A stretch of DNA of 35,168 nt, from the NCBI RefSeq assembly GCF_001899075.1, contig NZ_MKVA01000001.1, forward strand, positions 1-35,168, given 5' to 3'. Each line of letters begins with the position of its first letter. The first letter of the stretch is position 1. The notes beneath the pieces are model-generated. The model worked only from the letters and a program-made list of their open reading frames with translations, had not been told where the DNA came from and made no database searches. Positions 7,887 to 25,765 of the stretch are shown here, one piece after another. This stretch comes from Devosia sp. 67-54 (GTDB lineage: Bacteria; Pseudomonadota; Alphaproteobacteria; Rhizobiales; Devosiaceae). The position numbers and the translations under genes are program-made.

Positions 7887-7921
7887 CTGCTCCCCTTCCG
7901 CCAGCCCTTCCCGGGCCCCGG

Positions 7922-7938
7922 CCCTACTCCCACTCAAT
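7922..7938. repeat. Left attachment-like direct repeat (displaced guaA 3' end)
   Basis: CCCTACTCCCACTC is identical to the last bases of guaA at 25749-25762, and the match continues for three more bases with one mismatch. Read on the minus strand it encodes IEWE-stop, the conserved C-terminus of GMP synthase. The further upstream codons still give PG-M-IEWE against PG-T-IEWE in the intact gene. It therefore looks like the displaced gene end left by site-specific insertion into guaA. Confidence 0.8.
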
Positions 7939-8130
7939 CATTCCGGGCGTACCTAACACGTTGAATTTGCTTCGGTAAAATATTCCGCTCCCAATTGCTA
8001 CCGTCAACCGTACCGTCCCGATAAGCGCGCTATTGATTTCATTGGCAAATTCCGACTTTTCCAGAATGCCGTTCCTTCGCCAACTATCGACAGCAGCGGT
8101 TTCCTTGATTCGGCCGAGGATGGTGATCAT
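7924..8130 (-). CDS. Small ORF at island end, possibly a gene remnant
   Basis: A 68-codon frame whose ATG overlaps the aqpS stop by one base (TGATG). It could be translated by coupling. It matches nothing I know. Its last residues, PGMIEWE, are encoded by the guaA-like attachment repeat, so its 3' end was set by the integration site. The base composition is clearly lower in GC than its neighbours. It may be a truncated gene of the ars operon or a chance frame through island-end DNA. Confidence 0.3.
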   Translation of the reverse strand: MITILGRIKETAAVDSWRRNGILEKSEFANEINSALIGTVRLTVAIGSGIFYRSKFNVLGTPGMIEWE

Positions 8131-8810
8131 CAGACGCTTTCCTTCGCTGAGACCGGCCCGCGTCCGATGAGCCAGCCGGCGAGCGCCATCGCGATCAGCG
8201 CTCCGGCTAGTTGGGCGATGATGAACGCCGGAGCATCCAGCGGTCGGATGCCAGAGAAAGTATCGGTCAGCGCGCGCGCGATCGTCACCGCCGGATTGGC
8301 AAAAGACGTCGAGGCCGTGAACCAATATGCAGCGGTGATGTAGAGCCCGACCAGCCACGGGACCGCCGCCTGCTGAAACCGGACCCCAGCCAGAATGACC
8401 ATTACCAGTCCAAAGGTCGCAACGGCCTCCGAGAACCACTGGCCGCCGCCGGTCCGAACATGGGTCGACGCCTCGACGATCGGCAGTTCAAACATCAGGT
8501 GCGCGGCGACAGCTCCGGCGACGGCACCAAGAATCTGTGCCGCGACATAGGGCGCCAGTTCCGCGAAGGGCAGCTCCCGGCGCAGCGCGAATACCAGCGA
8601 CATGGCTGGGTTGAAATGGGCGCCGGAGATCGGGCCCAGTACGCTGATCACGACGACCAGGATCGCGCCCGTCGGCAGCGTATTGCCGAGAAGCGCAAGC
8701 GCCGTGTCGTCGGTGAGCCGGTCGGCCATGATGCCGGATCCGACTACCGTGGCCACGAGCATGGCCGATCCGAGGGCCTCTGCGACGAGGCGCCGAGCGA
8801 TATCCGTCAA
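8130..8810 (-). CDS. aqpS: Aquaglyceroporin AqpS of the ars operon
   Basis: A 226-residue major intrinsic protein with six membrane helices and two NPA loops: HFNPAMS (NPA at 67-69) and SFANPAVTIAR (NPA at 172-174). The residue after the second NPA, normally the selectivity-filter arginine, is Val175. The helix-1/2 filter position appears to be Thr47. As I recall, Sinorhizobium meliloti AqpS has Thr49 and Val177, the same pair shifted by two. AqpS channels let arsenite made by ArsC leave the cell down its gradient. The gene overlaps arsC by four bases (ATGA) and belongs to arsR-arsC-aqpS. Confidence 0.92.
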   Translation of the reverse strand: MTDIARRLVAEALGSAMLVATVVGSGIMADRLTDDTALALLGNTLPTGAILVVVISVLGPISGAHFNPAMSLVFALRRELPFAELAPYVAAQILGAVAGAVAAHLMFELPIVEASTHVRTGGGQWFSEAVATFGLVMVILAGVRFQQAAVPWLVGLYITAAYWFTASTSFANPAVTIARALTDTFSGIRPLDAPAFIIAQLAGALIAMALAGWLIGRGPVSAKESV

Positions 8811-9337
8811 GCTGCGCCGGCCGACTTCGTGGTCGAGCCCTCCATCGCGCCGATACCACGAAGCTTTGACTCGAGGGCCATCCTGTCGATGCTCTTGAGC
8901 GGCAGGCTGATGAACGCCGCGATGCGGTTGCGAAGGAAGCGCATCGCGTCTTCGAAGGCCGCGCGTTGCGCAAGGTCGGTACCGCGAACTGCAGCGGGGT
9001 CTTCAATGCCCCAGTGCGCCGTCAGCGGCCGGCCTGGCCAGATCGGACAGGTTTCGCCGGCGGCATTGTCGCAAACCGTGAAAACGAAATCCATCTGCAG
9101 TGCGCCCGGGAGCGCGAACTCGTCCCAGCTCTTGGAGCGCAGCTCGTCTGTCGGGATGCCGGCTTCCTGCAGAACCGCGAGGGTGCGCGGATGGACCTCG
9201 CCCCTGGGATGGCTGCCGGCCGAGTAGCCCTTGAATTTGCCGCCACCGATCTGGTTGAGGATCGCCTCGCCGAAGATCGAGCGCGCAGAGTTTCCGGTGC
9301 AGAGGAACAGGACGTTGTAGACGTGGTCAGCAGGCAT
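8807..9337 (-). CDS. arsC: Arsenate reductase, thioredoxin-coupled (low-molecular-weight phosphatase type)
   Basis: A 176-residue ArsC that reduces arsenate to arsenite in the cytoplasm. The P-loop CTGNSARS carries catalytic Cys13. The two further redox cysteines are Cys89 and Cys97 in VCDNAAGETCP, as in the Staphylococcus/Bacillus type that is recycled by thioredoxin. A DP general-acid motif follows at HWGIEDPA. The frame is open for 40 codons upstream inside arsR, but this ATG has GGAGAAGGA before it and starts the conserved fold. It overlaps arsR by 11 bp and aqpS by 4 bp. Confidence 0.95.
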   Translation of the reverse strand: MPADHVYNVLFLCTGNSARSIFGEAILNQIGGGKFKGYSAGSHPRGEVHPRTLAVLQEAGIPTDELRSKSWDEFALPGALQMDFVFTVCDNAAGETCPIWPGRPLTAHWGIEDPAAVRGTDLAQRAAFEDAMRFLRNRIAAFISLPLKSIDRMALESKLRGIGAMEGSTTKSAGAA

Positions 9338-9686
9338 TTTTTCCTTCTCCAGGTACGCAGCAGGGAGTGAATTCGGCGACGAGCGGCTCGCACAGTTCGG
9401 GGCGCCCGCCGCAGCAATCGCTGACGAGGAAGCTCGCGAGCTCGCGCACCCGCTCAACCTCGGCGCGGTAGATGATCGACCGGCTTTGGCGCTCGGAGGA
9501 GATGAGCCCTGCCCTCGTCAGGATGGCGAGGTGCGTGGACATGGTGTTCTGCGGCACGTCGAGAATGCGTGCCACTTCGCCTGCCGGCAGGCCGTGCGGC
9601 TCGTGCTTCATGATGAGGCGAAACGCCTCGAGGCGAGTGGTTTGCGACAAGGCCGCAAACACGTCGGTCGCTAAGCTGGGTTCCAT
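9327..9686 (-). CDS. arsR: ArsR/SmtB-family arsenical repressor
   Basis: A 119-residue winged-helix repressor that releases DNA when it binds trivalent arsenic. The recognition region is VPQNTMSTHLAILTRAGLI. The metalloid site is probably the C-terminal cysteine group Cys91-Cys92-Cys99, with further cysteines at 109, 110 and 119. This resembles the Acidithiobacillus-type site near the C-terminus rather than the CxCxxC of plasmid R773 ArsR. The ATG lies inside the operator palindrome and has no ribosome site; a -10-like box ends six bases before it, which suggests a leaderless mRNA. It heads arsR-arsC-aqpS and probably also controls the divergent operon. Confidence 0.95.
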   Translation of the reverse strand: MEPSLATDVFAALSQTTRLEAFRLIMKHEPHGLPAGEVARILDVPQNTMSTHLAILTRAGLISSERQSRSIIYRAEVERVRELASFLVSDCCGGRPELCEPLVAEFTPCCVPGEGKNAC

Positions 9687-9708
9687 ATATCGAGAATAGT
9701 CGATATAT
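9685..9708. promoter_or_regulatory. ArsR operator between the divergent ars transcripts
   Basis: A perfect inverted repeat, ATATATCGA-N6-TCGATATAT, overlaps the arsR start codon. It also covers the best -10 candidates in both directions (TATTCT for arsR on the minus strand, TATATT at 9704-9709 on the plus strand). A repressor bound here would silence both operons. Confidence 0.8.
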
Positions 9709-9722
9709 TTGCCTCGTGTCCA
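9693..9722 (-). promoter_or_regulatory. Predicted promoter of arsR-arsC-aqpS
   Basis: On the minus strand, TGGACA (9717-9722) is followed after 18 bp by TATTCT (9693-9698). The start of transcription would fall on or next to the A of the arsR ATG. Confidence 0.55.
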
Positions 9723-9787
9723 GCCCGCCTCGGTCGTTGTGATCGCTGCCGCCTGGAGAGCCGATCCTGGTGGGAGGATAGATAATC

Positions 9788-11143
9788 ATGCCCCGTTTGT
9801 TCATCGTCGGCGGAAGCGACGCCGGCATCAGTGCTGCGCTGCGAACGCGTGAGCTGGCCCCGGACTGGCAAGTCACAATGGCGGTCGCCGACCGCTACCC
9901 CAATTTCAGCATATGTGGAATTCCGTTCTATCTCGGTGGCGAGATACCGAACGCCCAGGATCTCGCGCATCGCAAGGCCGCTGACATCGAGGCCCTTGGG
10001 ATCGAAATGCTGCTCGATACCCGGATCGACCAGGTCAACGCACAAGGAAAGCGCGTGCACGCCGCCGGTGTGGAGCACGCGTTCGACAAGCTCGTTATCG
10101 GCACCGGCGCTACCTCGATCAGACCGCCGATTGCGGGTCTCGACCTGCCCGGTGTGTTCCTGCTGCGCTGGATGGACGACATGTTCGCCTTCGAACGCCA
10201 CCTCGAGACACGCAGGCCCCGCCGCGTGACCATCGTGGGCGCCGGCTACATCGGGCTCGAAATGGCCGAGGCGATGACGCATCGGAGCGTCGAGGTCACG
10301 GTGATCGAGCTGGCGCCGAGCGCCATGACGACGATCGACCCGGATCTGGGCACTCTCGTCGGCCAGGAACTGGAGCGCCACGGCGTGCGTCTGTTCGCCG
10401 GCCAGGCGATTGCCGAGATCGCCGCCGAGGGCGAGAGCCTGCGGCTGAAGGGGCCGAATAATTTCACGCATGAGGCCGACATGGTGCTCGTTGCGGCCGG
10501 CGCGAAGCCGGATACTGCCCTCGCAGTCGCCGCCGGGGCGCAGACGGGCTTCAAGGGAGCCATCAAGGTCAATCGGCGGATGGAAACCAACCTCCCCGAT
10601 GTCTATGCTGCCGGGGACTGCGTAGAGACCTTCCACCGCATCACTCAGGGCGTAACCTATCTTCCCCTTGGCACCACCGCCCACAAGCAGGGGCGGATCG
10701 CCGGTGAAAACGCCATCGGCCGGGAGCGCCTGTTCGAAGGAAGCCTTGGAACGCAGGTGGTGCGCGTCTTCGACCGCGTTGTCGCACGAACCGGTTTCCA
10801 CGACCGCGACGCCCGCGCCGCCGGATTCGATCCGGTATCGGTCGACTCCACGCAATGGGACCACAAGGTCTACTATCCGGGCGCCAAGCCGATGACCATT
10901 AGGGTCACCGCCGACCGGAACACGGGCAAACTCCTCGGCGCGCAGATCGTGGGCAGCTACGGCACGGAGGTCTCCAAACGCATCGACATCTTTGCGGCGG
11001 GGATCTTCCACGGCATGACGATCGAGACGTTTTCGGACCTCGACCTCAGCTACACGCCGCCGCTGAGCTCGCCCTGGGACCCGGTCCAGATGGCGACGCA
11101 AGCGTGGGCGAAGTCCGAGCGAGATGCGGCTCGGTCGCAATGA
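9788..11143 (+). CDS. FAD-dependent pyridine nucleotide-disulfide oxidoreductase (CoA-disulfide reductase/NADH oxidase type)
   Basis: A 451-residue flavoprotein. The N-terminal FAD-binding stretch is LFIVGGSDAGISAA, the NAD(P)H-binding stretch is VTIVGAGYIGLEMAEA, and the second FAD motif is DVYAAGDC, followed by the C-terminal dimerisation domain. SICGIPFYLGG places a single redox cysteine at Cys43, the position used by CoA-disulfide reductases and water-forming NADH oxidases. GGGAGGA precedes the ATG. It is the first gene of the plus-strand ars operon. Its role in arsenic metabolism is not established from sequence; thiol regeneration or direct arsenical redox chemistry are possibilities. 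Confidence 0.88.
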   Translation: MPRLFIVGGSDAGISAALRTRELAPDWQVTMAVADRYPNFSICGIPFYLGGEIPNAQDLAHRKAADIEALGIEMLLDTRIDQVNAQGKRVHAAGVEHAFDKLVIGTGATSIRPPIAGLDLPGVFLLRWMDDMFAFERHLETRRPRRVTIVGAGYIGLEMAEAMTHRSVEVTVIELAPSAMTTIDPDLGTLVGQELERHGVRLFAGQAIAEIAAEGESLRLKGPNNFTHEADMVLVAAGAKPDTALAVAAGAQTGFKGAIKVNRRMETNLPDVYAAGDCVETFHRITQGVTYLPLGTTAHKQGRIAGENAIGRERLFEGSLGTQVVRVFDRVVARTGFHDRDARAAGFDPVSVDSTQWDHKVYYPGAKPMTIRVTADRNTGKLLGAQIVGSYGTEVSKRIDIFAAGIFHGMTIETFSDLDLSYTPPLSSPWDPVQMATQAWAKSERDAARSQ

Positions 11144-11147
11144 GAGC

Positions 11148-11176
11148 TTGAACAACTCGGTAAAACGGCCTAAAAG
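11148..11176 (+). promoter_or_regulatory. Predicted promoter of the second arsR gene
   Basis: TTGAAC (11148-11153), a 17-bp spacer and TAAAAG (11171-11176) lie just before the second arsR gene. The -10 box ends eight bases before the ATG, so the mRNA would begin at or within two bases of the start codon. Confidence 0.5.
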
Positions 11177-11184
11177 CTATTTCC

Positions 11185-11511
11185 ATGAATATCGAAACAG
11201 TAGCTTCGCAGCTCGAGGCCCTCGGCAACCAGACGCGTCTCACCATGTACCGTACGCTGGTCCGCGCGGGGGACAGCGGCCTGGCGGTCGGCAAGCTGCA
11301 GCTCAAGCTCGACATCCCCTCCTCGACGCTCTCCCACCATCTGAAGAAGCTCGTCGAGGTTGGTCTCGTCACCCAGGAGCGGCAAGTCACGACGCTGATC
11401 TGCCGCGCCAATTACACCAGCATGAACAGCCTGGTGGGCTATCTTGCCGACGAGTGCTGCGCCGACGAAGCGGCGAGTTGCAGCATGTCGGCCACAGAGG
11501 AGGCAGCGTAA
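11185..11511 (+). CDS. arsR: Second ArsR-family repressor
   Basis: A 108-residue winged-helix regulator with recognition region IPSSTLSHHLKKLVEVGLV. Its cysteines at 91, 92 and 99 fall at the same residue numbers as in the first ArsR, with an extra one at 73, so both probably sense trivalent arsenic through a C-terminal site. Sequence identity between the two is otherwise low, so they are not a recent duplication. No ribosome site precedes the ATG, and the predicted promoter is so close that the transcript may be leaderless. The stop codon lies in the loop of a terminator hairpin. It stands between the oxidoreductase and arsO. Confidence 0.93.
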   Translation: MNIETVASQLEALGNQTRLTMYRTLVRAGDSGLAVGKLQLKLDIPSSTLSHHLKKLVEVGLVTQERQVTTLICRANYTSMNSLVGYLADECCADEAASCSMSATEEAA

Positions 11512-11527
11512 CGCCGCCTCTTTTTTT
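11500..11527 (+). terminator. Rho-independent terminator overlapping the arsR2 stop codon
   Basis: GAGGC-A-GCG, loop TAA, CGC-C-GCCTC is followed directly by seven T. The loop is the stop codon of the second arsR gene. A ribosome at the stop would melt the hairpin, so termination could depend on translation. arsO starts only 48 bp further on, which suggests read-through. Confidence 0.85.
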
Positions 11528-11574
11528 GTCTTGAATTTCTAAGCTTCTGGAAAGATCGAACAAAGGATCACGAC

Positions 11575-13011
11575 ATGGCCAACGAACACCTTCCGATTGC
11601 AGTCATTGGCGCTGGCCCGGTCGGCCTCGCGGCCGCCGCGCAACTCGTGGCTCGCGGTCTCGAGCCCATCGTGTTTGAGAAAGGCGATGACGTTGGCGCC
11701 TCCCTGTCGCAATGGGCCCATGTTCGCGTGTTCTCCCCGTGGCGGTACAACATCGACCGCGCGGCGGAGGCGCTGCTGACAAAGGCGGGATGGGAGGCAC
11801 CCGGGGTGACCGACCTGCCGACCGGTGCTCAGATGGTAGACGCCTATCTCAAGCCCCTCGCCGCATTGCCGGAAATTGCCCCGCACCTGAGGCTTTCGGC
11901 GACAGTCACCTCGATCACTCGCAAGGGGCTCGACAAGGTCTCCAATCTTGGCCGCAAGCTCGCGCCCTTCGTCATCGCCTGGACGGATCGGAACGGGATG
12001 GACCACCGTACGGAAGCGCGGGCCGTGATCGACGCTTCGGGCACTTGGACGCAGCCGAACCCCATGGGTGTCGACGGACTGATGGTGCCCGGCGAGCTCG
12101 CCAACGCCGGTCATATCGCGTACGGCATTCCCGATGTCCTTGGTACCGCACGTCATACCTATGCGGGCAAGACCACTCTTGTTGTCGGCAGCGGGCATTC
12201 CGCGATCAACGCCGCCCTCGCCTTGCTGGCTTTGGAGGAGACCGCCCCGGGCACGAAGGTGATGTGGGCATTGCGGCGCAATCGTCTCGAGCGGCTCCTC
12301 GGCGGCGGGATCAATGACCAGCTGCCGGAGCGCGGCGCGCTCGGGCTGGCGGCGAAGCGGGCGATCGATGAGAGTCGTCTCCAAATCCTTGCGCCGTTTG
12401 CCGCGACAAATATTGCGGCGGCCGAAGAGGGCGTGACGGTGACGGGCACGCTCGGCGGCAGCCCCCTCAGCATCACGGTCGACCGAATTGTCGTCGCCAC
12501 CGGCTTCAGGCCGGATCTGGGGATGCTTTCCGAGCTGCGCGTCGCGATCGATCCGGCTACCGAGGCGCCGCCAGCGCTCTCGTCGTTGATCGATCCGAAC
12601 TTCCACTCGTGCGGCGATGTTCCGCCTCACGGCGTGGTTGAGCTCACTCAGCCTGAAACGGACTTCTATATCGTGGGCTCGAAGAGCTACGGACGCGCAC
12701 CGACGTTCCTGATGGCCACGGGCTATGAGCAGGTGCGCTCGATCGCCGCCGAGCTGGCCGGCGACCATGTCGCGGCCCGCCAGGTGCAACTGGTCCTTCC
12801 CGAAACCGGGGTCTGCAATTCCGACGTGTCGGTCGGATCGAGTTGCTGTGCCGCGCCGGCATCGGTGGCGGCATCGTCGTGCTGCGGCGGCCCTGCGGTC
12901 GACGCCAGCGCAGCGTGCTGCGTCGCCGACGAGATCGCCAAGGCGGCGGGAGAAGCGGGGTGCGGCTGCGGGACAGCATCTGCGCCGGCCCCGCAGGTCG
13001 AGCTTGCCTGA
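11575..13011 (+). CDS. arsO: ArsO-like flavin-dependent monooxygenase with cysteine-pair tail
   Basis: A 478-residue flavoprotein of the kind often found in ars operons as ArsO. The FAD site is IAVIGAGPVGLAAAAQL, the NADPH-type second nucleotide fold is TTLVVGSGHSAINAALAL, and RIVVATGFRPD is the family's ATG/FxP motif. The core ends near residue 410. It is followed by a ~66-residue tail with nine cysteines: 414, the pairs 424/425, 436/437 and 448/449 spaced by exactly 12 residues, and 463/465. The tail is low in complexity and probably binds arsenic(III) or another soft metal. The ribosome site is AAAGGA. It is followed after 15 bp by the MFS gene. The substrate of ArsO proteins is not settled, as far as I know. 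Confidence 0.82.
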   Translation: MANEHLPIAVIGAGPVGLAAAAQLVARGLEPIVFEKGDDVGASLSQWAHVRVFSPWRYNIDRAAEALLTKAGWEAPGVTDLPTGAQMVDAYLKPLAALPEIAPHLRLSATVTSITRKGLDKVSNLGRKLAPFVIAWTDRNGMDHRTEARAVIDASGTWTQPNPMGVDGLMVPGELANAGHIAYGIPDVLGTARHTYAGKTTLVVGSGHSAINAALALLALEETAPGTKVMWALRRNRLERLLGGGINDQLPERGALGLAAKRAIDESRLQILAPFAATNIAAAEEGVTVTGTLGGSPLSITVDRIVVATGFRPDLGMLSELRVAIDPATEAPPALSSLIDPNFHSCGDVPPHGVVELTQPETDFYIVGSKSYGRAPTFLMATGYEQVRSIAAELAGDHVAARQVQLVLPETGVCNSDVSVGSSCCAAPASVAASSCCGGPAVDASAACCVADEIAKAAGEAGCGCGTASAPAPQVELA

Positions 13012-13026
13012 ACCAGAAAGCCACCC

Positions 13027-14217
13027 ATGTCGGACAAACGCACCCTGACGTGGGTCATCGCCGGGCTCGGACTGACGCAAATCGTCGGTTACGGCACGCT
13101 CTACTACTCGTTTTCAGTGCTGGCGCCGGCCGTGGCGCCGGCGCTGGGCTGGTCCACTGAAGGCCTTTACGCCGCCCTGACGGTGGCGCTGCTCGCCGGC
13201 GGACTACTCGGTCCCGTCGCCGGCAAATGGGCCGACAGGTATGGCGCCGGCCGCATCATGGCAGTTGGGTCGCTCGTTGCGGCAGCCGCTTTGGCCGCGG
13301 CGGGACTTGCGCCGGGCGGCGCCGGGTACGCTGTGGCACTGGTCATTGGCGAACTGGCGTCCGCGCTGGTGCTCTACAGCACGGCCTTCGCGGCGATCGT
13401 CCAGGTGGGCGGCGACCAACGAACGATCACTTATCTGACGCTCATCGCTGGCTTCGCCTCAACGATCTTCTGGCCGCTCACGGACGCGCTACAGCATGGG
13501 GTCGGCTGGCGGGGTACCTATCTGGCGTTTGCGATCATGAACATCGCCCTCTGCCTCCCGGTGCACGCCGGCATCGCGGGGCTCAAGCGGCACGACGTCC
13601 ATCGCGAGGCGACTGAGGGTGCGTTCCCGACCAAATCTACGCGACTGGGCGGACCCAAGTTCGTCCTGATGCTCGCGGGCTTCCTTACCGAGGGGTTCGT
13701 GCTTTCAGCGGTCCTGTTCCACCTGGTGCCCGTCCTTCAGGATCTTGGCCTCGGCGGGTCGGGCGTGCTCGTCACGACGCTGTTCGGACCCGCCCAGGTG
13801 CTGAGCCGGCTGACCAACATGGTGTTCGGACGCGAGCTTCCCCAGACGATCCTCGCGGTCCTCGCGGCGTGCGCATTACCGCTCGGCGTGGCCATCTTGT
13901 TGCCCACAGCCCCGTCGATCTGGGGCGCATGCGTGTTCGCGGTGATTTTCGGCTTGGGATCCGGGCTGACATCGATCATTGGGGGCACCCTGCCCCTCGA
14001 GCTTTTCGGACGCGAGGGATATGGCGCCCGACTGGGATGGATCGGCGCGGCGCGAACGTTCGCGTCGGCTCTCGCGCCTTACGCTCTGGCTTTGCTCCTC
14101 GGGCGCACCGGGACCGTGACGGGACTTTGGATCGTCGCGGCTTCCGCACTGGTCGGCATCGCTGCGTTCAGCGCCCTGGCGGTTGCCGCGACCCGACCGC
14201 AACTTCGGCCAGTATAG
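13027..14217 (+). CDS. MFS transporter of the ars cluster, candidate arsenical exporter
   Basis: A 396-residue major facilitator with about 12 membrane helices. The MFS loop between helices 2 and 3 is recognisable as GKWADRYGAGRIM. It lies 15 bp behind arsO and is the last gene of the plus-strand ars operon. MFS proteins in such clusters include ArsJ, which needs a partner GAPDH, and ArsK, which exports trivalent arsenic and antimony. No GAPDH gene is present, so an ArsK-like role is more likely. The window has no arsB or acr3, which leaves this protein and AqpS as the arsenite exits. The exact subfamily needs alignment. Confidence 0.85.
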   Translation: MSDKRTLTWVIAGLGLTQIVGYGTLYYSFSVLAPAVAPALGWSTEGLYAALTVALLAGGLLGPVAGKWADRYGAGRIMAVGSLVAAAALAAAGLAPGGAGYAVALVIGELASALVLYSTAFAAIVQVGGDQRTITYLTLIAGFASTIFWPLTDALQHGVGWRGTYLAFAIMNIALCLPVHAGIAGLKRHDVHREATEGAFPTKSTRLGGPKFVLMLAGFLTEGFVLSAVLFHLVPVLQDLGLGGSGVLVTTLFGPAQVLSRLTNMVFGRELPQTILAVLAACALPLGVAILLPTAPSIWGACVFAVIFGLGSGLTSIIGGTLPLELFGREGYGARLGWIGAARTFASALAPYALALLLGRTGTVTGLWIVAASALVGIAAFSALAVAATRPQLRPV

Positions 14218-14252
14218 CCCGCCAGGCCTAATCAAGCCCCGACGTTGGTGCC

Positions 14253-14714
14253 CTAACTGGTTGACTGGATGGGTATCCTTGCCGCCCGCGCCCCCTCGTC
14301 CGACGCCTTTGACTCTACCCAACTCGCACCGGACGGCCGCTCCTCGAGCTTCCAGAATGGGGCGTCGGTCTTGAGATAGTCCATGAGGTACTCGGCAGCC
14401 TCGAACGCAGCTCGCCGATGCGGAGCGAGCGTCATCACCTGCATGATCGGCTCTCCCGGAAGAAGCCGGCCGAAACGATGAATGACGCGGACGTCCAGCA
14501 GCGAAAACTGCTCCATGGCGCGGCTCATGATCCGCTCGATCTCGGCCCTGGCCAGCTCAGGGTAGTGCTCAATGGTCATGGCAGACACAGGATCGTCGGG
14601 CGTCGACCGCATGATGCCCGTGAACGTCACCGCGGCCCCGGCCCCGTCTGTTGCGGCAATGAAGGCATTGAGCTCGGCCCCCGGGTCGAAGGGCTCTGAC
14701 TGAATGGAGAGCAT
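14253..14714 (-). CDS. moaE: Molybdopterin synthase catalytic subunit MoaE
   Basis: A 153-residue MoaE, the large subunit of molybdopterin synthase, which inserts sulfur into cyclic pyranopterin monophosphate. The C-terminal active-site stretch KTDAPFWKLE has the two conserved lysines, and MTLAPHRRAAFEAAEYLMD precedes it. The sulfur-carrying partner MoaD is not encoded in the window, so MoaE must use one from the chromosome. It begins 5 bp after moeA and is probably the last gene of the aioB-aioA-moeA-moaE transcript. It converges with the MFS gene, with 35 bp between the two stop codons and no clear terminator. Confidence 0.95.
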   Translation of the reverse strand: MLSIQSEPFDPGAELNAFIAATDGAGAAVTFTGIMRSTPDDPVSAMTIEHYPELARAEIERIMSRAMEQFSLLDVRVIHRFGRLLPGEPIMQVMTLAPHRRAAFEAAEYLMDYLKTDAPFWKLEERPSGASWVESKASDEGARAARIPIQSTS

Positions 14715-14719
14715 TGCGC

Positions 14720-16000: not shown

Positions 16001-16009
16001 ATCCGCCGC
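15984..16009 (-). promoter_or_regulatory. Intercistronic hairpin between aioA and moeA
   Basis: On the minus strand a perfect 10-bp stem (GCGGCGGATG and its complement) with loop TGAAGG starts eight bases after the aioA stop. It includes the GTG start candidate of moeA. There is no T-run, so it is not a standard terminator. It could protect the 3' end of an aioBA mRNA and lower moeA translation. Confidence 0.6.
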
Positions 16010-16016
16010 CTGAGCC

Positions 16017-18479: not shown

Positions 18480-18490
18480 GATATCTCCCC

Positions 18491-19021
18491 TCAGAGCACG
18501 TTCGACAGGCGGCCGTAGAGCAGCTCATCCACGCCTTCGGCGTAGATGTCACCCTTGTCGTCCACTCTCAGCACGTATTGCGGCAGGTTCTGCGTCGCGT
18601 GACCCCAGACCTGCTGGCCACCGCGCTCGCAGTCGAAGCGCGAGTAGTGGCCTGGGCAGTTCAGGGTCTTGTCGCCAGAGTTGTAGGCGAGCGGGAAACC
18701 CTTGTGCGGGCAGGTCGTCGAGAAGCCGACAATGTCTTGGTCGGGGCCGACACCACCTGGTACCTTGGCGCCGAGCTTGAGCAGCACGCCTGGAGCGTCG
18801 GCGTCGGGATAGCCTACCTCGAGCGGAATGTTCAGAACAAGATCTTGAACGTTGCCGAGCCGGTTCGCGGGATAGGTGACGAGGGCGGAGCCCTGCGAAG
18901 GCGTGGCGGCCTCGGCGGCGCGCGGCAGCATGGTGGCTGCCGCCACCCCCGCCGCTCCGAGCGTTGCTCCTGTCAGAAAGCGGCGTCGACCAACGTCGAC
19001 CATCGCGTCGCACTTTTCCAC
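18491..19021 (-). CDS. aioB: Arsenite oxidase small (Rieske) subunit AioB with Tat signal
   Basis: A Rieske [2Fe-2S] protein that takes electrons from AioA. The Tat signal is GRRRFLTGATLGAAG, followed by a hydrophobic stretch and an AEA cleavage region. The cluster ligands lie in STTCPHKGF and NCPGHYSRFD. The positions that form a disulfide in respiratory Rieske proteins are Phe and Gly here, so that bridge is missing, as I recall for the Alcaligenes faecalis enzyme. The frame is open to an ATG at 19075, but that codon lies upstream of the predicted sigma54 transcription start. GTG 19021 has GGGAGGA at ideal distance, so I start there (176 residues); ATG 19003 is a second choice. Confidence 0.95.
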   Translation of the reverse strand: MEKCDAMVDVGRRRFLTGATLGAAGVAAATMLPRAAEAATPSQGSALVTYPANRLGNVQDLVLNIPLEVGYPDADAPGVLLKLGAKVPGGVGPDQDIVGFSTTCPHKGFPLAYNSGDKTLNCPGHYSRFDCERGGQQVWGHATQNLPQYVLRVDDKGDIYAEGVDELLYGRLSNVL

Positions 19022-19058
19022 GCGTTCCTCCCGAGACGTGTTGAGTCGGGGGAAGTAG

Positions 19059-19074
19059 TGCAAAGGGTGTGCCA
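19059..19074 (-). promoter_or_regulatory. Sigma54 (-24/-12) promoter of aioB-aioA-moeA-moaE
   Basis: TGGCACACCCTTTGCA on the minus strand matches the consensus TGGCACG-N4-TTGCW at all positions but one. GG and GC are exactly 10 bases apart. Transcription should start near 19048, about 27 bases before the aioB GTG. The adjacent gene product AioR is a sigma54 activator. Confidence 0.9.
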
Positions 19075-19146
19075 CGGGCGCGTGAGCTCCGTGCAGCGTG
19101 CCCTGCGAGCGAGGTTTCTTCAGTAGGTATCGTTCAGGTAAGTTGA

Positions 19147-19185
19147 GACGTTCGGATTTCCGAACGTCGTTCGACTTGCCGAACG
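19147..19185. promoter_or_regulatory. Two tandem inverted repeats, probable AioR enhancer sites
   Basis: Two copies of CGTTCG-N6-CGAACG occupy 19149-19166 and 19168-19185; the first is extended to a perfect 10-bp inverted repeat with a 2-bp centre. The centres are 19 bp apart, about two helical turns. They lie roughly 108 and 128 bp upstream of the predicted aioB transcription start, the usual distance for a sigma54 activator. They fill the gap between the aioR stop and the aioB promoter. Confidence 0.8.
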
Positions 19186-19186
19186 T

Positions 19187-20506
19187 CTAGTGATGCTCGC
19201 CGGTCCTGATTTCGAGCCGGCGCATCTTCTCCCAAAGCGTGGTCCTCGAAATACCGAGCAGCTTGGCGGCAGCAGCCATCTCGTTACCGGTGATCTCGAG
19301 CGCTCGCATGATCTGCGTCCGCTCGGCCGCGTCGCGGGCAGCCTCCAGCGACACGAACGACGGGACGGGAGCGCCTCCCCGCCCTTCCGGAAAGAGGTCC
19401 GCCGGCATCAGGAGTGTGCCGAGCGCGAGGGCCACGCCACGCTCGATCCGGTTGCGCAGCTCCCGTACGTTTCCGGGCCAGGAATAGGCTTTCGCGGCCT
19501 CCTCGGTGAGCGGGCTGATACCGCTGAGACCCGCATCGAACTGTTCGACCGCGCGATCGAAGAACAGCTCCATCAGCCAAGGGATATCCTCTGACCGCTC
19601 ACGCAACGGGGGTACTTCGAGCGAGACGACATTGATGCGGTAGAGGAGGTCTTCGCGGAACTTGCCGTCGCGGACCAGCCGGGCCAGGTCCACATTGGTG
19701 GCACAGACGACCCGCGCTTCGAATTCCACGAGCTTTTCGCCGCCCACGCGGTGAAATCTTCGCTCGTCCAGGAGCCGCAGGAGCTTGGCCTGCAGCGACA
19801 ACGGCATCTCGCCGATCTCGTCGAGAAACAGCGTTCCCGCCCCTGCCCGCTCGGCATAGCCAAGGTGGCGGGACTGGGCGCCGGTGAACGCACCGCGCTC
19901 GTGACCGAAGAGCTCCGACTCCATCAGCTCGACAGGAATGGCGGCGCAATTGACGGCGATGAAGGGTCCGGGATCTGGAGCGGCTTGATGGTAGAAGGTG
20001 GCGCAGACCTCCTTGCCGGCACCGGTCTCGCCGGTCAGCAGCAAAGTCGAACGGGTCCTCGCAAGGCGGGTCAGCGTGCGGCAGAGGGACTTCATGGGCG
20101 CGGACCTGCCAAGGGCTTCGTCGTCGCCGTGCTCCTCGCTCGGCAACACGCTCGCGAGTTGCTGCAGGAACTCCGCCATCTCAAAGGGTTTGGCGAGGTA
20201 GTGCGCGGCGCCGGATCGCAGCAGCCGGACGGCCTGGTCGATGTCGGCATAGCCTGTGATGAACAGGAACGGCGGCATCGGCTTGCGCTCGCTCATGGTC
20301 CGAAAGACGTCTTCCCCGCTCATATCGGGCAGGCGCATGTCGGAGACGACCACATCCGGAACCGTGCGCTCGAGGCCGGCGATCGCTTCCTTGCCGTTGG
20401 TCCACAGATTTACCGTCGCCCCTTCCAGCGACAGGCGCTGCTGCAGAGACTGCCCCATGATGGGATCGTCTTCGAGAAGACCGATGGTGCGACCGCTAAG
20501 CAACAT
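19187..20506 (-). CDS. aioR: Sigma54-dependent response regulator AioR
   Basis: A 439-residue NtrC-type activator in three parts. The receiver domain has Asp13/Asp14 and phospho-acceptor Asp56 (VVVSDMRLPD) and a KPF lysine motif. The AAA+ domain has Walker A GETGAGKE, sigma54 contact loop GAFTGA and Walker B TLFLDEIGEMP. The C-terminal Fis-type helix-turn-helix is GNEMAAAAKLLGISRTTLWEKM. The frame opens six codons earlier at a TTG, but ATG 20506 has GGGGAGAG five bases before it. It overlaps aioS by 11 bp. On arsenite sensing by AioX/AioS it should activate the aioB promoter. Confidence 0.96.
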   Translation of the reverse strand: MLLSGRTIGLLEDDPIMGQSLQQRLSLEGATVNLWTNGKEAIAGLERTVPDVVVSDMRLPDMSGEDVFRTMSERKPMPPFLFITGYADIDQAVRLLRSGAAHYLAKPFEMAEFLQQLASVLPSEEHGDDEALGRSAPMKSLCRTLTRLARTRSTLLLTGETGAGKEVCATFYHQAAPDPGPFIAVNCAAIPVELMESELFGHERGAFTGAQSRHLGYAERAGAGTLFLDEIGEMPLSLQAKLLRLLDERRFHRVGGEKLVEFEARVVCATNVDLARLVRDGKFREDLLYRINVVSLEVPPLRERSEDIPWLMELFFDRAVEQFDAGLSGISPLTEEAAKAYSWPGNVRELRNRIERGVALALGTLLMPADLFPEGRGGAPVPSFVSLEAARDAAERTQIMRALEITGNEMAAAAKLLGISRTTLWEKMRRLEIRTGEHH

Positions 20507-21956
20507 GCTGGCTCTCCCCTTCAATACCGACCCGCCGCGGGATGCGCAGACGCATGGCCGCCCCCGGGAGCGAGCTATGACCGGCCGTCAGGGTGCCTCC
20601 CAACTCAGCCGCCATCCGCTTGGCAATCCACAAACCCAGCCCGGTTGTCCCGGCCACGGGAGATTCCGAGCCGGCCGCACCCAAAAAAGCCTCAACGTGC
20701 GCCGGCAGGCCCGGCCCGGAGTCCTCAACGTCGACCCAAAGGTCCGCGGCGTCAACCTGCGCCCTGACCAGAACGGTCCCGCTCTCGGGCACGGCGCTGC
20801 AGGCATTCAGCACCAGGTTCAGAACCACCTGGCGCACCGGAAAAGCGTCGACTTCGAACTCCTTTGGGAGCTGGTTCTCCCAGATCAGCTCGATACGCTT
20901 GCGCCGAACCTCCGGGCGAACCAAGAGCCGGACGTCGTCGATGTCGGCGCCGAGAAGATTGCGAACCTGCCGGTCGGGCCGGTAGGTGGCGAGGACCGAC
21001 CTGACGGCGTCGCGAATGCCGAAAAGGCCGCGCTCGAGAAGCCTGGCGACGTCTTCTCGGACCTCGGGGCGCGCACCGTGGACCTTGAGTGTGTCGAGCG
21101 CATTGAACAGGCCGCCCAGTGGATTGTTGATCTCATGGGCGAGCCCCGAGGCTAGGCGGCCCAGGCTCGATAGCCGCTCCTCCTGCGCAAGGCGGCCGGT
21201 GAGCGCCTCGCGGTCAGCCATGGCCTTGGCCATGTCGTTGAACTGAGCGAAAAGCCTTGATGCCTCGCTACCAGCATTGCGCATCTCTATTTCCGAGATC
21301 GGCTCGACCCGGCCGTCAGCGGCCCGCTGCAGGGCGGCGAAAAGCACGTTCACCGGCCGCACCATGCGGCGCACCATGAACCAGCCGAGGGCGGCCAGGA
21401 GCACGGTCAGCGCCGCGTTTGTGCCCAACAAGGTCCACAGCACCTGGGCTCGCTCATGCACAAGTGCAGCAGTATCGAGTTCGGCGTAGATGTCGCCAAT
21501 CATGCGTCCCTCGACGACGAGCGGCCGTGCAACTGTTGCCCGTCCCTGGCCGCCTATTTCCACTTTCCCGGTCGCCGATGCCGGCACCGGGAACACATCG
21601 GCGATCTTGGCGCCGATCGGAGCGGCCCGCGGGTCGGACGCAGCAAGCACAGCGCCCTGTGGATCCGCGACAACGGTCTGCAATGGACCGACGGCTTGAT
21701 ACAGGCGTCTGGCGCGATCGAGGGCGTCGAAGATTTCCCAGGTGTCCTGTCGCAGGACGGGATCGACGATCGCTGACTCGACGCCATCGAGATAGGCGTC
21801 GGCCAGATCATTGAGCTGGCGCTCCTGGGTTGCGACCAGCCTCGAAAAGACAACCTGCGAAACGCCAGCGCCGATCACGATCATCAGGACGACGACAAGC
21901 GCCGGCACCTTGAAGGTGAGAGGCAGCCGGTCGGAGATGGCCGTGAACCAGGTCAT
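20496..21956 (-). CDS. aioS: Sensor histidine kinase AioS
   Basis: A 486-residue membrane kinase. Membrane helices lie at about residues 16-38 and 172-196 and enclose a ~130-residue periplasmic sensor domain. A HAMP linker follows, then the H-box GLAHEINNPLGG with His274. The ATPase part has LNLVLNACSAV (N box), DSGPGLP (G1) and GTTGLGLWIAK (G2). The ATG overlaps the aioX stop (ATGA) and the stop overlaps aioR. In the characterised rhizobial systems the periplasmic AioX passes the arsenite signal to this kinase, which phosphorylates AioR. Confidence 0.95.
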   Translation of the reverse strand: MTWFTAISDRLPLTFKVPALVVVLMIVIGAGVSQVVFSRLVATQERQLNDLADAYLDGVESAIVDPVLRQDTWEIFDALDRARRLYQAVGPLQTVVADPQGAVLAASDPRAAPIGAKIADVFPVPASATGKVEIGGQGRATVARPLVVEGRMIGDIYAELDTAALVHERAQVLWTLLGTNAALTVLLAALGWFMVRRMVRPVNVLFAALQRAADGRVEPISEIEMRNAGSEASRLFAQFNDMAKAMADREALTGRLAQEERLSSLGRLASGLAHEINNPLGGLFNALDTLKVHGARPEVREDVARLLERGLFGIRDAVRSVLATYRPDRQVRNLLGADIDDVRLLVRPEVRRKRIELIWENQLPKEFEVDAFPVRQVVLNLVLNACSAVPESGTVLVRAQVDAADLWVDVEDSGPGLPAHVEAFLGAAGSESPVAGTTGLGLWIAKRMAAELGGTLTAGHSSLPGAAMRLRIPRRVGIEGESQHVA

Positions 21957-22831
21957 GCCCGTTTTCGCACCAGTTCCATGTTCGCCCCAATCGTGTCGAA
22001 CAGCGACGGCGGCTCGGCCGAGAAGCTGTCGAGTTCGAGCATCGCCAGGACTTCACGGCCCGTGGGATCGGCCTGCATGCCCAGAAGGGCCTTGGTCAGG
22101 AGTCGAGTGTTTTCGGAATTCGCGGTCGCCGCGAGGCACGCGACCGGCGGGAAGCCATACCAGGCCGAGGCCCGGACCACCCTGGTGGCGGCCACCAGGT
22201 CGGGCTCCATGGTCCTCAGAACCTCGTACACGTAGCCGTCGACGCTGCCGCTCTGGGCGAGCCCCGACCCCACCGCGCGGACGACGTTGCGGTGACCGTA
22301 GGTGTAGAAAGTCTGGCTGAAAAAGGCCTCGGGCGAGATGGCTTTCGATGCGAGCTCCGCAGCCGTGACCAGGTAACCCGAATTGGAATCCGGGTCGGAG
22401 AAGGCGTGGATATCGCCCTTCAGATGCTCGAGATCGGTGGCCGTGCGGGCAGCGTCCGAGATCAGATATGACTGGTAGACCGGCCGGCTGTGCCAGACGG
22501 GCACCGCGACAAGCTGCATCTGGGTTTTGTTCGCGACATAGGGAAAACCGCAAACCCAGGCGGCGTCGACCTGGCCAGCCAGGATCATCGCCGTGATTTC
22601 CTGATAGGTGCGCCGGGTGACGAGCTGCACCGGTCGGCCAGTGGCCTGCTGCAGATACGATTTAAGCTTGTCGAGGAGATCGAGGTCCGAGGTCAAAAAG
22701 ACCGGCGTCAGGGCAAATTTGACGGTCGCGGGGCCGGCCGCAACTGCTTGCGACGCGACCAGACCAGCCAGCGCTGCTCCTCCGAGTGCCAACACGTCGC
22801 GTCGGCCCATTGGGTCCGTTTGATGCGCCAC
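21953..22831 (-). CDS. aioX: Periplasmic arsenite-binding protein AioX
   Basis: A 292-residue PhnD-like periplasmic binding protein that acts as arsenite sensor for AioS. A Tat-like signal peptide, MGRRDVLALGGAALAGLVAS, is followed by the mature start AAGPATVKFAL. The single conserved cysteine in VDAAWVCGFPYV (Cys94 here) corresponds to the residue reported as essential for arsenite binding in Agrobacterium AioX. The frame is open to 22942, but GTG 22831 has AGGGAGA at good distance and begins right before the signal, so I start there. It is the first gene of aioX-aioS-aioR. Confidence 0.93.
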   Translation of the reverse strand: MAHQTDPMGRRDVLALGGAALAGLVASQAVAAGPATVKFALTPVFLTSDLDLLDKLKSYLQQATGRPVQLVTRRTYQEITAMILAGQVDAAWVCGFPYVANKTQMQLVAVPVWHSRPVYQSYLISDAARTATDLEHLKGDIHAFSDPDSNSGYLVTAAELASKAISPEAFFSQTFYTYGHRNVVRAVGSGLAQSGSVDGYVYEVLRTMEPDLVAATRVVRASAWYGFPPVACLAATANSENTRLLTKALLGMQADPTGREVLAMLELDSFSAEPPSLFDTIGANMELVRKRA

Positions 22832-22874
22832 GAGCTCTCCCTGTGCCGTTCCTCTGACGGGGCCGGCATCAGGA

Positions 22875-22904
22875 ATCGTAACACGCGGACAGAGCATCCG
22901 CCAA
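22875..22904 (-). promoter_or_regulatory. Possible sigma70 promoter of aioX-aioS-aioR
   Basis: TTGGCG (22899-22904) and TACGAT (22875-22880) on the minus strand are 18 bp apart. Both boxes are partial matches. Transcription would start about 37 bases before the aioX GTG. Confidence 0.4.
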
Positions 22905-22906
22905 TT

Positions 22907-22922
22907 AGGCCCGGTTCTTGCA
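22907..22922 (+). promoter_or_regulatory. Possible sigma54 promoter of moaA-mobA-mogA
   Basis: AGGCCCGGTTCTTGCA keeps the invariant GG and GC with the exact 10-base spacing, the CG at the end of the -24 box and the TTGCA of the -12 box. Two of the less strict positions differ from consensus. It lies 55 bases before the moaA ATG. No copy of the CGTTCG-N6-CGAACG enhancer is found nearby, so AioR control is not shown. Confidence 0.5.
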
Positions 22923-22938
22923 AGGTCTTCACAAAAGC

Positions 22939-22959
22939 GCACCCGCTCAGCTCGGGTGC
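22939..22959 (+). promoter_or_regulatory. Hairpin in the moaA leader
   Basis: GCACCCG, a seven-base loop and CGGGTGC form a perfect 7-bp stem just ahead of the moaA ribosome site. It is too short for the known molybdenum-cofactor riboswitch. It has no T-run. Confidence 0.4.
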
Positions 22960-22977
22960 CGCCGGGGAGGATGCAAA

Positions 22978-23991
22978 ATGAACGCCGCTATTCCAGGAAC
23001 TCTGATTGACCCCTTCGCTCGGCGCATTAGCTATCTGAGGGTCTCGGTTACCGACCGTTGCGATTTTCGCTGCGTTTACTGCATGGCCGAGGAAATGACT
23101 TTCCTGCCGCGGCGCGAGGTTTTGACCCTCGAAGAGCTCGACCGGCTGTGTTCGGCCTTCATCGAGCGCGGCGTTCGAAAACTGAGACTCACCGGCGGGG
23201 AGCCTCTGGTGCGCAAGAACCTGATGGCCCTGGTCCGCTCCCTGTCGAGGCACCTCAAGTCCGGCGCGCTCGAAGAGCTGACGCTCACCACCAATGGCTC
23301 GCAGCTAAGCCGTTTCGCCCACGAGCTCGCCGACGCGGGCGTTCGGCGGATCAATGTTTCTGTCGACACGCTCGACCCCGAAAAATTCCGGGCAATCACC
23401 CGGCGGGGCGACCTGGGCGTCGTGCTTGCGGGCGTCGACGCTGCCCGAGCAGCAGGCCTTGCCGTAAAGATAAACGCCGTCGCCCTCAAGGGCGTGAATG
23501 ATGATGAATTCGATGGCATGATCGAATGGACCCACGGCAATGGGATGGATCTGACGCTGATCGAAACCATGCCGCTCGGCGACATCGATGCGGACCGCAC
23601 GGACCAGTACCTGCCGTTGTCGATCGTTCGCGACCGGCTCGCGGAAAATTGGACGCTGGAGGATGTCCCGTATCGCACCGGCGGCCCGGCCCGTTACATG
23701 CGCGTCGCCGAGACCGGCGGACGAATTGGCTTCATCACCCCGCTGACGCACAATTTTTGCGAGACATGCAACCGGGTGCGGATCACCTGCACCGGAACGC
23801 TCTTCATGTGCCTTGGGCAAGATTCCTCAGTAGACCTGCGCGCGCCACTCAGAGCTTCGGAGGGTGACGAGGCGCTCCATCGGGCCATTGACGAAGCGAT
23901 TTCGCGCAAGCCGAAGGGCCATGATTTCATCATCGATCGGGCTGGCGCCAAACCGGCGGTGAACCGGCACATGAGCATGACGGGCGGTTGA
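22978..23991 (+). CDS. moaA: GTP 3',8-cyclase MoaA
   Basis: A 337-residue radical SAM enzyme that, with MoaC, converts GTP to cyclic pyranopterin monophosphate, the first step of molybdopterin synthesis. The N-terminal [4Fe-4S] motif is Cys28-x3-Cys32-x2-Cys35 (CDFRCVYC). The substrate-binding second cluster is CETC plus a cysteine 14 residues on (C-x2-C-x13-C). The protein ends in the conserved Gly-Gly. The frame opens earlier at a TTG, but ATG 22978 has GGGGAGGA in front and begins the conserved region. MoaC is not in the window. It is first in moaA-mobA-mogA and diverges from aioX. Confidence 0.96.
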
Positions 23992-24005
23992 GGCGGCGGG
24001 CGAAA

Positions 24006-24692
24006 GTGATCTCCGAAAACGCCATTGTTGGCGTCATACTCGCGGGCGGCAAATCCTCGCGAATGGGTACCGACAAAAGTCTGCTTCCCATCGGGGGCGA
24101 ACCGATGTTCCAGCGGGTCGCGACACGGCTTGGCCGGCAAGTTGGCCGGATTGTCGTCAGCGCGAACCAGGACCCAGAACCGTTCAGGGCCGCTGGTCTG
24201 CCGGTCGTTGCCGACAGCTTTGTCGACCGCGGACCGCTGGCGGGTTTCCTTGCTGGAATGATCTGGGCGTCCGCCGTCCCAGACGCAACGCACATTCTGA
24301 CTGTCGCCTGCGATACGCCATTCTTCCCGATCGATCTGGCCGAGAGACTTTCCGCCTCCCTGGTGCTCGATCGGGCGGGTATGGCGATCGCTCGGTCCGC
24401 CGGACGCGACCACTATGTCTTCAGCCTGCAGCCGATCGCGCTTGCCGACGAGCTAGAGCGGTGGATCGTCGCCGACGCCGATCGTTCCCTCAAGGGCTGG
24501 ATGCTCAAGCACTCGGTCCATGTCGTCGACTTCGACCTTGATGCCGATCCCTTTTTCAATATCAACCGACCGGAGGACATGCGGGTGGCGCGGGATCGCG
24601 TCACGGCGGAGGATAAGGTCAGCTACCTCTCAGGGAGACGCCGACGTGAAGATCGGAATTCTTACGGTTTCAGACCGCGCGAGCCGCGGTGA
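24006..24692 (+). CDS. mobA: Molybdenum cofactor guanylyltransferase MobA
   Basis: A 228-residue nucleotidyltransferase that joins GMP to the molybdenum cofactor, making the bis-guanine-dinucleotide form that AioA uses. The GTP-binding signature LAGGKSSRMGTDKSLL lies near the N-terminus, followed by ACDTPFFP. GTG 24006 gives a normal N-terminus; a TTG at 23988 overlapping the moaA stop is an alternative. The last 47 bp overlap the start of mogA in another frame. The C-terminal 25 residues, rich in arginine, seem to be an extension produced by reading into mogA. Confidence 0.92.
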   Translation: MISENAIVGVILAGGKSSRMGTDKSLLPIGGEPMFQRVATRLGRQVGRIVVSANQDPEPFRAAGLPVVADSFVDRGPLAGFLAGMIWASAVPDATHILTVACDTPFFPIDLAERLSASLVLDRAGMAIARSAGRDHYVFSLQPIALADELERWIVADADRSLKGWMLKHSVHVVDFDLDADPFFNINRPEDMRVARDRVTAEDKVSYLSGRRRREDRNSYGFRPREPR

Positions 24693-25170
24693 GTACGAGG
24701 ACATGGGTGGTCCTGCCATCGAGGCCTACCTGCATGCTGCGATCTCAACGAGTTGGGAACCGATCAAGCAGATCGTGCCCGATGGCCTCGCGTCAGTGCG
24801 GGATGCGCTGCTGAGGATGTGCGGAGAAGGTGCGGGGCTGATCCTTGCGACCGGCGGGACCGGCCCGTCAGCACGTGACGAAACGCCAGAGGCAATGGCT
24901 GCAGTGATCGAAAAGGACCTACCCGGCTTCGGCGAGTTGATGCGCCGAGTGAGCCTCGAACAGGTGCCAACCGCGATTCTCTCGCGGCAGTCCGCAGGCA
25001 TCCGGGGGAAGACCATGATCGTGACACTGCCCGGCAAGCCAACGGCCATCAAGGTCTGCCTCGATGCGGTGTTTCCTGCCGTACCCTATTGTTTAGATCT
25101 TATCGGAGCCGGTCGGATCGATACACATGCATCGGTGGTCAGGGCATTTCGTCCGGCGATGTCTACCTAG
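24646..25170 (+). CDS. mogA: Molybdopterin adenylyltransferase MogA
   Basis: A 174-residue MogA/MoaB-type protein that adenylylates molybdopterin before MoeA inserts molybdenum. The N-terminus KIGILTVSDRASRGEYEDMGG is typical of MogA, and the catalytic region is LATGGTGPSARDETPEA. LPGKPTAIKVCLD near the C-terminus is also characteristic. GTG 24646 has AGGGAGA about eight bases before it; the frame is open further upstream inside mobA but that part is not protein-like. It is the last gene of moaA-mobA-mogA. MoaB-type naming is possible, as the two families are close. Confidence 0.93.
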   Translation: MKIGILTVSDRASRGEYEDMGGPAIEAYLHAAISTSWEPIKQIVPDGLASVRDALLRMCGEGAGLILATGGTGPSARDETPEAMAAVIEKDLPGFGELMRRVSLEQVPTAILSRQSAGIRGKTMIVTLPGKPTAIKVCLDAVFPAVPYCLDLIGAGRIDTHASVVRAFRPAMST

Positions 25171-25750
25171 CCGGTTGGCGGCAATATCCCGGCGATATTG
25201 CACCCGATATCCTCGGATCGATGTTCAAGCGGGATATCTCGAGAACGTTGTTTTAGCAGCGTCGCTCGCCTCGCCAACGGCATTGTCGTAGGCCTCGGCG
25301 CTGAGACCCTCTACGTGCTCGATCATTGCCAATGTCGGCGATGTCGAGGCTGGGTTCGTTCTGATAACCGTTTCTATGGCGCCTTGCACGCGCAGAACAG
25401 TCGAGCTGATCTCGCCATATCTAGCGGTTGCCATACGGCCGCATAGTGAAAATCATCATTGCAGTTTGCTAAGCTCCGCAATCAGGAGGCAATGTCTGCT
25501 TTGGGCCAGAAGTGGACCTCTGTCAGCGGCCGAAAGGTGTTGCCACGGCCGCAACGCAGACCCGCCTTTGTGCCCCCTACTCTACTCCAACGCTCGCTCG
25601 TTCAACGACGACACCTTGCGTCCTATCAGTCAAACGCGCAGATCGGTCCCACGCGTTTTGAAGTGGAGGACACAGTGGTGAGGCAAGTGGGCGTGGTCAG
25701 ATCGATGTCGAGAACGCCGCCGAAACTACGCTACTGCCGCCGATTGCCCC
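25171..25750. other. Gene-poor right end of the island
   Basis: These 580 bp separate mogA from guaA, where related islands usually carry their integrase. I see no integrase or recognisable fragment of one. A 69-codon minus-strand frame (25225-25434) has no ribosome site and no known relatives. The other frames are low-complexity shadows. Positions 25491-25560 read like the dispersed repeat that is mis-called as MSALGQK proteins in rhizobial genomes, with an imperfect hairpin at 25494-25517. A 12-bp copy of the guaA end lies at 25571-25582. Confidence 0.6.
25181..25201 (+). terminator. Hairpin after mogA, possible terminator
   Basis: GCAATAT, a seven-base loop and ATATTGC form a perfect stem 11 bp after the mogA stop. 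The T-run of a classical terminator is missing, so it may act only as an mRNA end stabiliser. A second 7-bp inverted repeat (GATATCC/GGATATC) follows within 40 bp. Confidence 0.4.
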
Positions 25751-25765
25751 CTACTCCCACTCGAT
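25749..25765. repeat. Right attachment-like direct repeat at the guaA 3' end
   Basis: CCCTACTCCCACTC contains the stop codon and last codons of intact guaA. The same 14 bases occur in the same orientation at 7922-7935. The 3' ends of housekeeping genes, guaA among them (GIsul2 is one case I recall), are known integration targets. Confidence 0.8.

Follow-up and report, generated by a model that had tools for sequence, protein, structure and literature searches.

The DNA analysed here (the window) covers positions 1 to 35,168 of contig C1 (NZ_MKVA01000001.1) of Devosia sp. 67-54 (genome G000), base 1 being the contig end. Within it, 17.8 kb of DNA with arsenic and molybdenum-cofactor genes lie between guaA, the intact gene of a GMP synthase of 522 amino acids (aa) (25751..27319, minus strand), and a far copy of the guaA end (7922..7938, minus strand). 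Judged from the shared repeat and from a comparison of the adjoining arms, this far copy is the true distal attachment end (attR) of the guaA-specific family of integrative elements typified by the genomic island GIsul2. The preferred, still tentative explanation of the interval as a whole (probability around 0.45) is an integrase-less passenger that would have been delivered to guaA in trans, carrying the guaA flank of a donor.

The far copy as an attachment end

The repeat is exact over 14 bp (25749-25762 and 7922-7935, same strand) and extends over 17 bp when one mismatch is allowed (guaA copy 25749..25765, minus strand). The core GAGTGGGA, by which members of the family are recognised, is present at both ends of the island and lies at 25755-25762 at the 3' end of guaA. 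In frame, the far copy encodes GTPGMIEWE-stop, like the C-terminus of GuaA. Both the repeat and the coding of the GuaA C-terminus with its stop (PG-x-IEWE-stop) had been claimed in a first-pass annotation of this DNA and are confirmed, the number of chance copies of the 14-mer expected in the window on both strands being 7e-5 (first-order Markov). Neither GAGTGGGAGT nor the IEWE-stop reading occurs in 1.69 Mb of other sequence, which comprises seven stretches and 80 aioA loci (kept out of 180 found in GTDB contigs, with flanks of up to 10 kb, often shorter at contig ends). The GC content of the interval (0.64) is near the values outside (0.66 and 0.67), and composition is therefore no marker of the island.

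The distal arm (7936..7980, minus strand) contains TCAACGTGTTA, which begins 29 bases before the core, and one TGACGGTA is located nearby at around 8006. When 136 genomes of the family were searched with the DNA of the far end as query (five candidates scored per genome), a match was obtained to an orphan guaA end in G129, a genome of another genus of the same family, with 49 of 66 bases alike, core included (E 2e-7). In G129 this end is situated 72 kb downstream of guaA (1395663-1397204) in the same direction, and guaA is followed by a tyrosine integrase of 418 aa with an arm-binding domain, a glutaredoxin-type arsC and acr3. Homologues of this integrase (E 1e-80 or better) are found in 36 of the 397 sampled genomes of the order and not in G000, such that the guaA-specific element family is present in about one tenth of the sampled genomes. 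Concerning their position, 30 integrase loci out of the 36 were read: the guaA C-terminus stands directly upstream of the integrase in 28, while L172, at the edge of its contig, retains just the last guaA bases, and in L197 the contig stops too early to show the site. Integrase homologues hence adjoin guaA in 29 of the 30, the thirtieth being the one cut off. Matches 78 to 89% identical to the G129 integrase exist on four other replicons, and a plasmid integrase shares 57% identity with it; on R485, the genes that come after this plasmid integrase are alpA, repA, repC and trbJKL.

When 60 kb downstream of each of 12 guaA integrases were examined for distal ends, an orphan guaA end was found beyond the integrase in four. 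In these four arms, and equally in the window, a TCA-N6-TA box starts exactly 29 bases before the core; this mark of a distal arm was defined in the present work from Hyphomicrobiales-type relatives and is unpublished. With a weight matrix of the four arms, which had been found solely through their integrase (positions -45 to -6, core excluded), the far copy ranks first among the 70,256 positions of the two window strands. When the far arm was shuffled 20,000 times, its score was reached in 3 cases, and in the element sequences it was reached at 30 of 1,580,982 positions, with the training sites counted. A model built from five arms, core included, gives 28.6 for the window, 47.0 to 57.1 for the members, and 20.8 for the best site elsewhere (the 80 aioA loci plus another 15 stretches, among them those of the Devosia genomes G006 and G011); none of the six best-scoring sites in this set has an intact core. 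As a pattern with at most two mismatches, the arm occurs at 12 sites in 11 of the 397 genomes, compared with 2 for a reversed control pattern. Besides the window, only the sites in G431 and perhaps G263 resemble attachment ends (frames were inspected at L199, L206, L207 and L209, the remainder being judged from the matched letters). The distal-arm model allows other genomes to be searched for integrase-less remnants of the guaA integrase family.

A chance match between the two sites can practically be dismissed. That the exact identity spans just 14 bases is in its favour, whereas the low number of chance copies expected, the guaA C-terminus readable in frame and the resemblance of the far arm to the arms of independent elements speak against it, the ranking by the arm model having already disfavoured this reading.

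As a separate observation on G129, an AAA/SMC-like protein and a caspase-like/DEAD-helicase fusion protein of 1006 aa adjoin the distal end of its guaA element (L164:13480-19537). The fusion protein matches a PADLOC caspase (3e-13) and HamB (2e-33), and forms with its neighbour a candidate defence pair.

The guaA-side junction and the DNA beyond the far copy

At 29 integrase-side junctions, the core is followed by the tetranucleotide ATGA (20), ATAA (6) or GTGA (3); the tail after the guaA core in the window, GTAG, is seen in none of them. Still attached to guaA is a native-type 3' flank (25709..25750, minus strand), whose aligned stretch of around 45 bp starts in the stop region at 25754. It matches the DNA directly after guaA in G049 and G086 (score 48, 0 of 200 shuffles each), both without an integrase homologue within the 20 kb examined, and, displaced by 31 bases, that in G016 (score 34, 0 of 200 shuffles). 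The other 18 of the 21 native flanks are unlike it (the best of them, G008, with 5 of 200 shuffles), and among 16 congeners it is clear in G016 only. The same flank is found beyond the distal end in the integrase-bearing G365 and G352 (0 of 300 shuffles) and more weakly in G165 (1 of 300) and G431 (2 of 300), and is not found there in G203, G129 and G263. In G365, no integrase homologue follows the flank and der is situated 17 kb further; since this corresponds to the host order, the flank is taken as host DNA displaced by the element. The window does not combine an integrase-side arm after the guaA core with a native flank pushed out beyond the distal end, and the lacI side beyond the far copy shows no native-type flank. 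As far as these alignments indicate, neither a normal attL at the guaA-side edge nor an integrase-side arm in the flank is supported. Such a test for a displaced flank separates a normal insertion from a passenger.

Concerning the flank itself, a stretch of about 45 bp following guaA or a displaced guaA end, and ending near TTTTCG, is alike in G049, G086, G352 and G365 and, more weakly, in G431, thus in several families of the order. RNA folding of three flanks gave no terminator, the window flank folding worse than all of its 200 shuffles. A mirror-image stretch GCGTAGTTTCGG of the consensus of the integrase-side arms lies within 25700-25740. For positions 18-45, a range picked after the similarity had been seen, the mirrored arm near 25713 scores 17.7, the highest value of the window (10.5 being the second highest); with wider ranges it ranks 50 and 16, the model contains 19 of the 29 arms, and the likeness is unproven. 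When the far-side flank was compared with the 21 native flanks, G078 gave 0 of 200 shuffles (score 25), judged to be chance among 21 tests, as were the values for G003 (7 of 200), G004 (11 of 200), G015 (17 of 200) and the others, which were higher.

An integrase gene beside guaA, as possessed by GIsul2-type elements, is not found in G000. None of the nine listed PF00589 matches of the genome (of ten tallied) is on the window contig, and, used as a query, the G129 integrase has no match in the window (lowest E 1.0), in agreement with the earlier statement that the integrase is gone. A search for an integrase remnant at 25165-25762 gave no match among plasmids. In a non-exhaustive family search with 25160-25748 (four candidates scored per genome), short matches appeared in eight genomes besides G000, of which those in G049 and G086 revealed the native guaA flank. 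Elsewhere in G000, three tyrosine-integrase matches in a row are situated at a contig start (C10:1442-3863).

On the far side, the open reading frame (ORF) of a lacI-type regulator (6873..7937, minus strand) overlaps the far copy, its likelier GTG start lying 37 bp past the far-copy stop codon. The first-pass annotation had predicted that relatives lacking the island would have this gene directly after guaA, which did not prove true: a homologue was found in one of 19 genus genomes at E 1e-60 and in one of the 136 family genomes at 1e-80 (at most 15 candidates per genome scored), in both cases G000 itself. In all 16 congeners whose contigs continue past guaA, different DNA comes after the gene. 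In 15 of them it leads to yfgM and der, with yfgM at a distance of 0.15 to 16.6 kb (inverted in G013); in the remaining one, G012, the contig breaks off 1.6 kb past guaA. The yfgM homologue of G000 is situated on contig C5 (1209708-1210604), around 6 kb from its end, and the last 11 kb of C5 contain no further guaA end. Presumably C5 and C1 adjoin in the genome; the guaA-yfgM interval of G000 would then be at least 25.7 kb plus around 6 kb on C5. Because yfgM sits so near the end of C5, the block of lacI, ABC, sulfatase and GH32 genes is probably non-conserved DNA in the same interval. This block is unrelated to the island in function, as had been stated, but it does not represent the DNA conserved next to guaA. 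Genes similar to the window lacI and to an ABC permease also occur in the guaA-yfgM interval of G003.

Possible origins of the island

According to the preferred explanation, the DNA between the far copy and guaA would be an integrase-less passenger with aio, ars and molybdenum-cofactor genes, inserted at the guaA core by a guaA integrase acting in trans, which later departed or never entered. With the circle, a unit of distal arm, core and guaA 3' flank would have come from a related donor, such that a native-type flank would come to lie beside guaA and the recipient's own flank, the lacI side, beyond the far copy. A passenger with a donor flank explains in one step the missing integrase, the native-type flank at guaA and the different flank on the far side; since G016 alone of the congeners clearly shares the flank, it may have arrived with the insert. 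Several points weigh against this passenger. The donor arrangement, with the distal arm downstream of the native flank, is unexplained, as a simple tandem insertion puts the native flank rightmost, and G000 may just have inherited the flank from its ancestors. Over the last 100 bases of guaA, G049 is closest (0.908) and the best congener reaches 0.888, a narrow margin. No second copy of the island was found among the 80 aioA loci, and no empty site, with guaA directly followed by lacI, in the sampled relatives, which are perhaps not close enough; moreover, the far side is incomplete, as the window begins at a contig end. In G006 most of the gene set, and in G011 part of it, is found away from guaA on another contig; the first-pass annotation had named such loci as contradicting the insertion at guaA, which they weaken without refuting it.

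Alternatively, in line with the view of the first-pass annotation, an entire guaA element bearing an integrase and arsenic genes may have integrated in the classical manner and then decayed in place, its integrase end having been deleted later. The genuine distal end, the complete guaA element of G129 with its integrase beside arsC and acr3, and the gene-poor stretch 25171-25708, where an integrase would be expected, are consistent with such a decay; however, the native-type flank would then be expected beyond the far copy and is found beside guaA, guaA should end in an arm of the integrase side, and a deletion reaching to the core and sparing guaA, plus the gain of a native-type flank, needs a second event. 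This course of events is unlikely, if still a serious candidate. A patchwork origin is equally unlikely, and likewise a serious candidate. In this case the junction between guaA and its flank would have stayed intact throughout, the aio/ars cluster would be one accretion among several in the variable guaA-yfgM interval, and the distal end would be left over from another element. The native-type flank does adjoin guaA, and the interval is as variable among the congeners, and as long in G000, as described above. In addition, most of the aio, ars and molybdenum-cofactor gene set in G006, and in G011 the aio and cofactor part with arsR-arsC, are situated on contigs other than that of guaA, and the gene cluster is therefore not bound to guaA. 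Against a patchwork, the distal arm sits next to the arsenic cargo at the expected end of an element and at the correct spacing to the core, and the far core equals guaA of the same genome over 14 bp. Quite doubtful is the more general proposition that guaA integrases can move integrase-less stretches running from the host guaA 3' flank to a distal arm, the island being such a packaged arsenite-oxidation module; if true, chromosomal accessory genes downstream of guaA would become portable in trans.

Gene content and comparison with known systems

As had been claimed, the interval carries arsenic and molybdenum-cofactor genes. The Aio cluster on the minus strand contains aioA (arsenite oxidase large subunit, 16017..18479) and aioB (small Rieske subunit, 18491..19075), both above the curated NCBIfam cut-offs, and adjoining them an aioR-type sigma-54 response regulator (19187..20524) and an aioS-type histidine kinase (20496..21956), both named from their place, and an aioX-type periplasmic binding protein (21953..22942), so named because it adjoins the two-component genes and aioBA. 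It is flanked by cofactor genes, namely moaE (14253..14714) and moeA (14720..16000) on the minus strand, each above the Pfam and below the NCBIfam cut-off, and moaA (22918..23991), mobA (23988..24692) and a mog-type molybdopterin adenylyltransferase (24520..25170, the domain starting near ORF residue 42) on the plus strand. Towards the far copy, the minus strand encodes a MIP channel of the aquaporin family (8130..8810), a homologue of low-molecular-weight-phosphatase-type (ArsC-like) arsenate reductases (8807..9457) and an arsR-type gene (9327..9686), and the plus strand a CoA-disulfide-reductase-like FAD enzyme (9788..11143), a second arsR-type gene (11185..11511), an ArsO-like/YpdA-like flavoprotein (11575..13011) and arsK, an arsenite efflux transporter of the major facilitator superfamily (13027..14217, above the NCBIfam cut-off); the reductase homologue, the FAD enzyme and the flavoprotein are below their NCBIfam cut-offs. 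The stretch 25171..25708 contains no recognised gene, and the guaA-side edge of the inserted DNA would lie somewhere in it or at the core. The cargo is predicted to oxidise and export arsenite, using its own molybdopterin genes. Among the 80 aioA loci, the FAD enzyme has a match of at least 45% identity in L074 only (72%), and a contig labelled Oceanobacillus sp., possibly mislabelled (L133), has an aioA 67% identical to that of the window.

A search for junctions of guaA and aio genes, which had been proposed with the first-pass annotation, was negative, with no guaA match near aioA in any of the 80 loci. The clusters of G006 and G011 are similar to the island in AioA (82% identical), aioXSRB, moeA, moaA and mog, G006 further sharing homologues of moaE, arsR, the arsC-type gene, the aquaporin, the flavoprotein and arsK, and G011 those of arsR and the arsC-type gene; unlike the island, they do not lie beside guaA and have no distal arm among the best sites. 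The element of G129 shares with the island the guaA site, arsenic genes and the distal arm, whereas it is around 72 kb long, possesses an integrase and gave no tblastn match to aioA, aioB or aioX. Neither the window ars genes nor arsC and acr3 of G129 have a match in the 12 integrase elements (60 kb each).

Cis-mobilizable elements (CIMEs) are flanked by att sites and lack an integrase. The island resembles them as integrase-less DNA between att cores, both cores and the distal arm being present, whereas its guaA-side site is not a typical attL and its mobilisation is only supposed here.

Arsenic cargo at guaA is already known; of arsenite oxidase at this site, no report was found in the available text of the open-licence literature searched. 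An arsenite-oxidation gene set is now tied to an insertion hotspot known for arsenic efflux cargo. Equally located at the guaA 3' end and with arsenic cargo is ICERspD18B of Rheinheimera sp. D18, an integrative and conjugative element with arsRHCB and a 20-bp repeat, ACAATNGAGTGGGAATNNTT (PMC7775301). Unlike the island, it is a complete mobile element with an integrase, an ars efflux operon and antibiotic resistance genes, and the accessible part of that publication mentions no arsenite oxidase.

The closest described relative, as far as the available text goes, is GIsul2, a guaA genomic island with an integrase, alpA, replication, transfer and arsenic genes and the core GAGTGGGA, whose integrase recombines attR with attB and excises an integrase-less unit between attLR and attR (PMC9376610), both of which favour the proposed passenger. 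From its gene order, R485, which is unnamed in the text available of that publication, resembles a carrier of a GIsul2-type backbone. The window island and GIsul2 share guaA as the insertion gene, the core GAGTGGGA and arsenic cargo, whereas in the window island no integrase, alpA, rep or trb genes were found, and it possesses arsenite oxidase and molybdenum-cofactor genes together with a native-type guaA junction.

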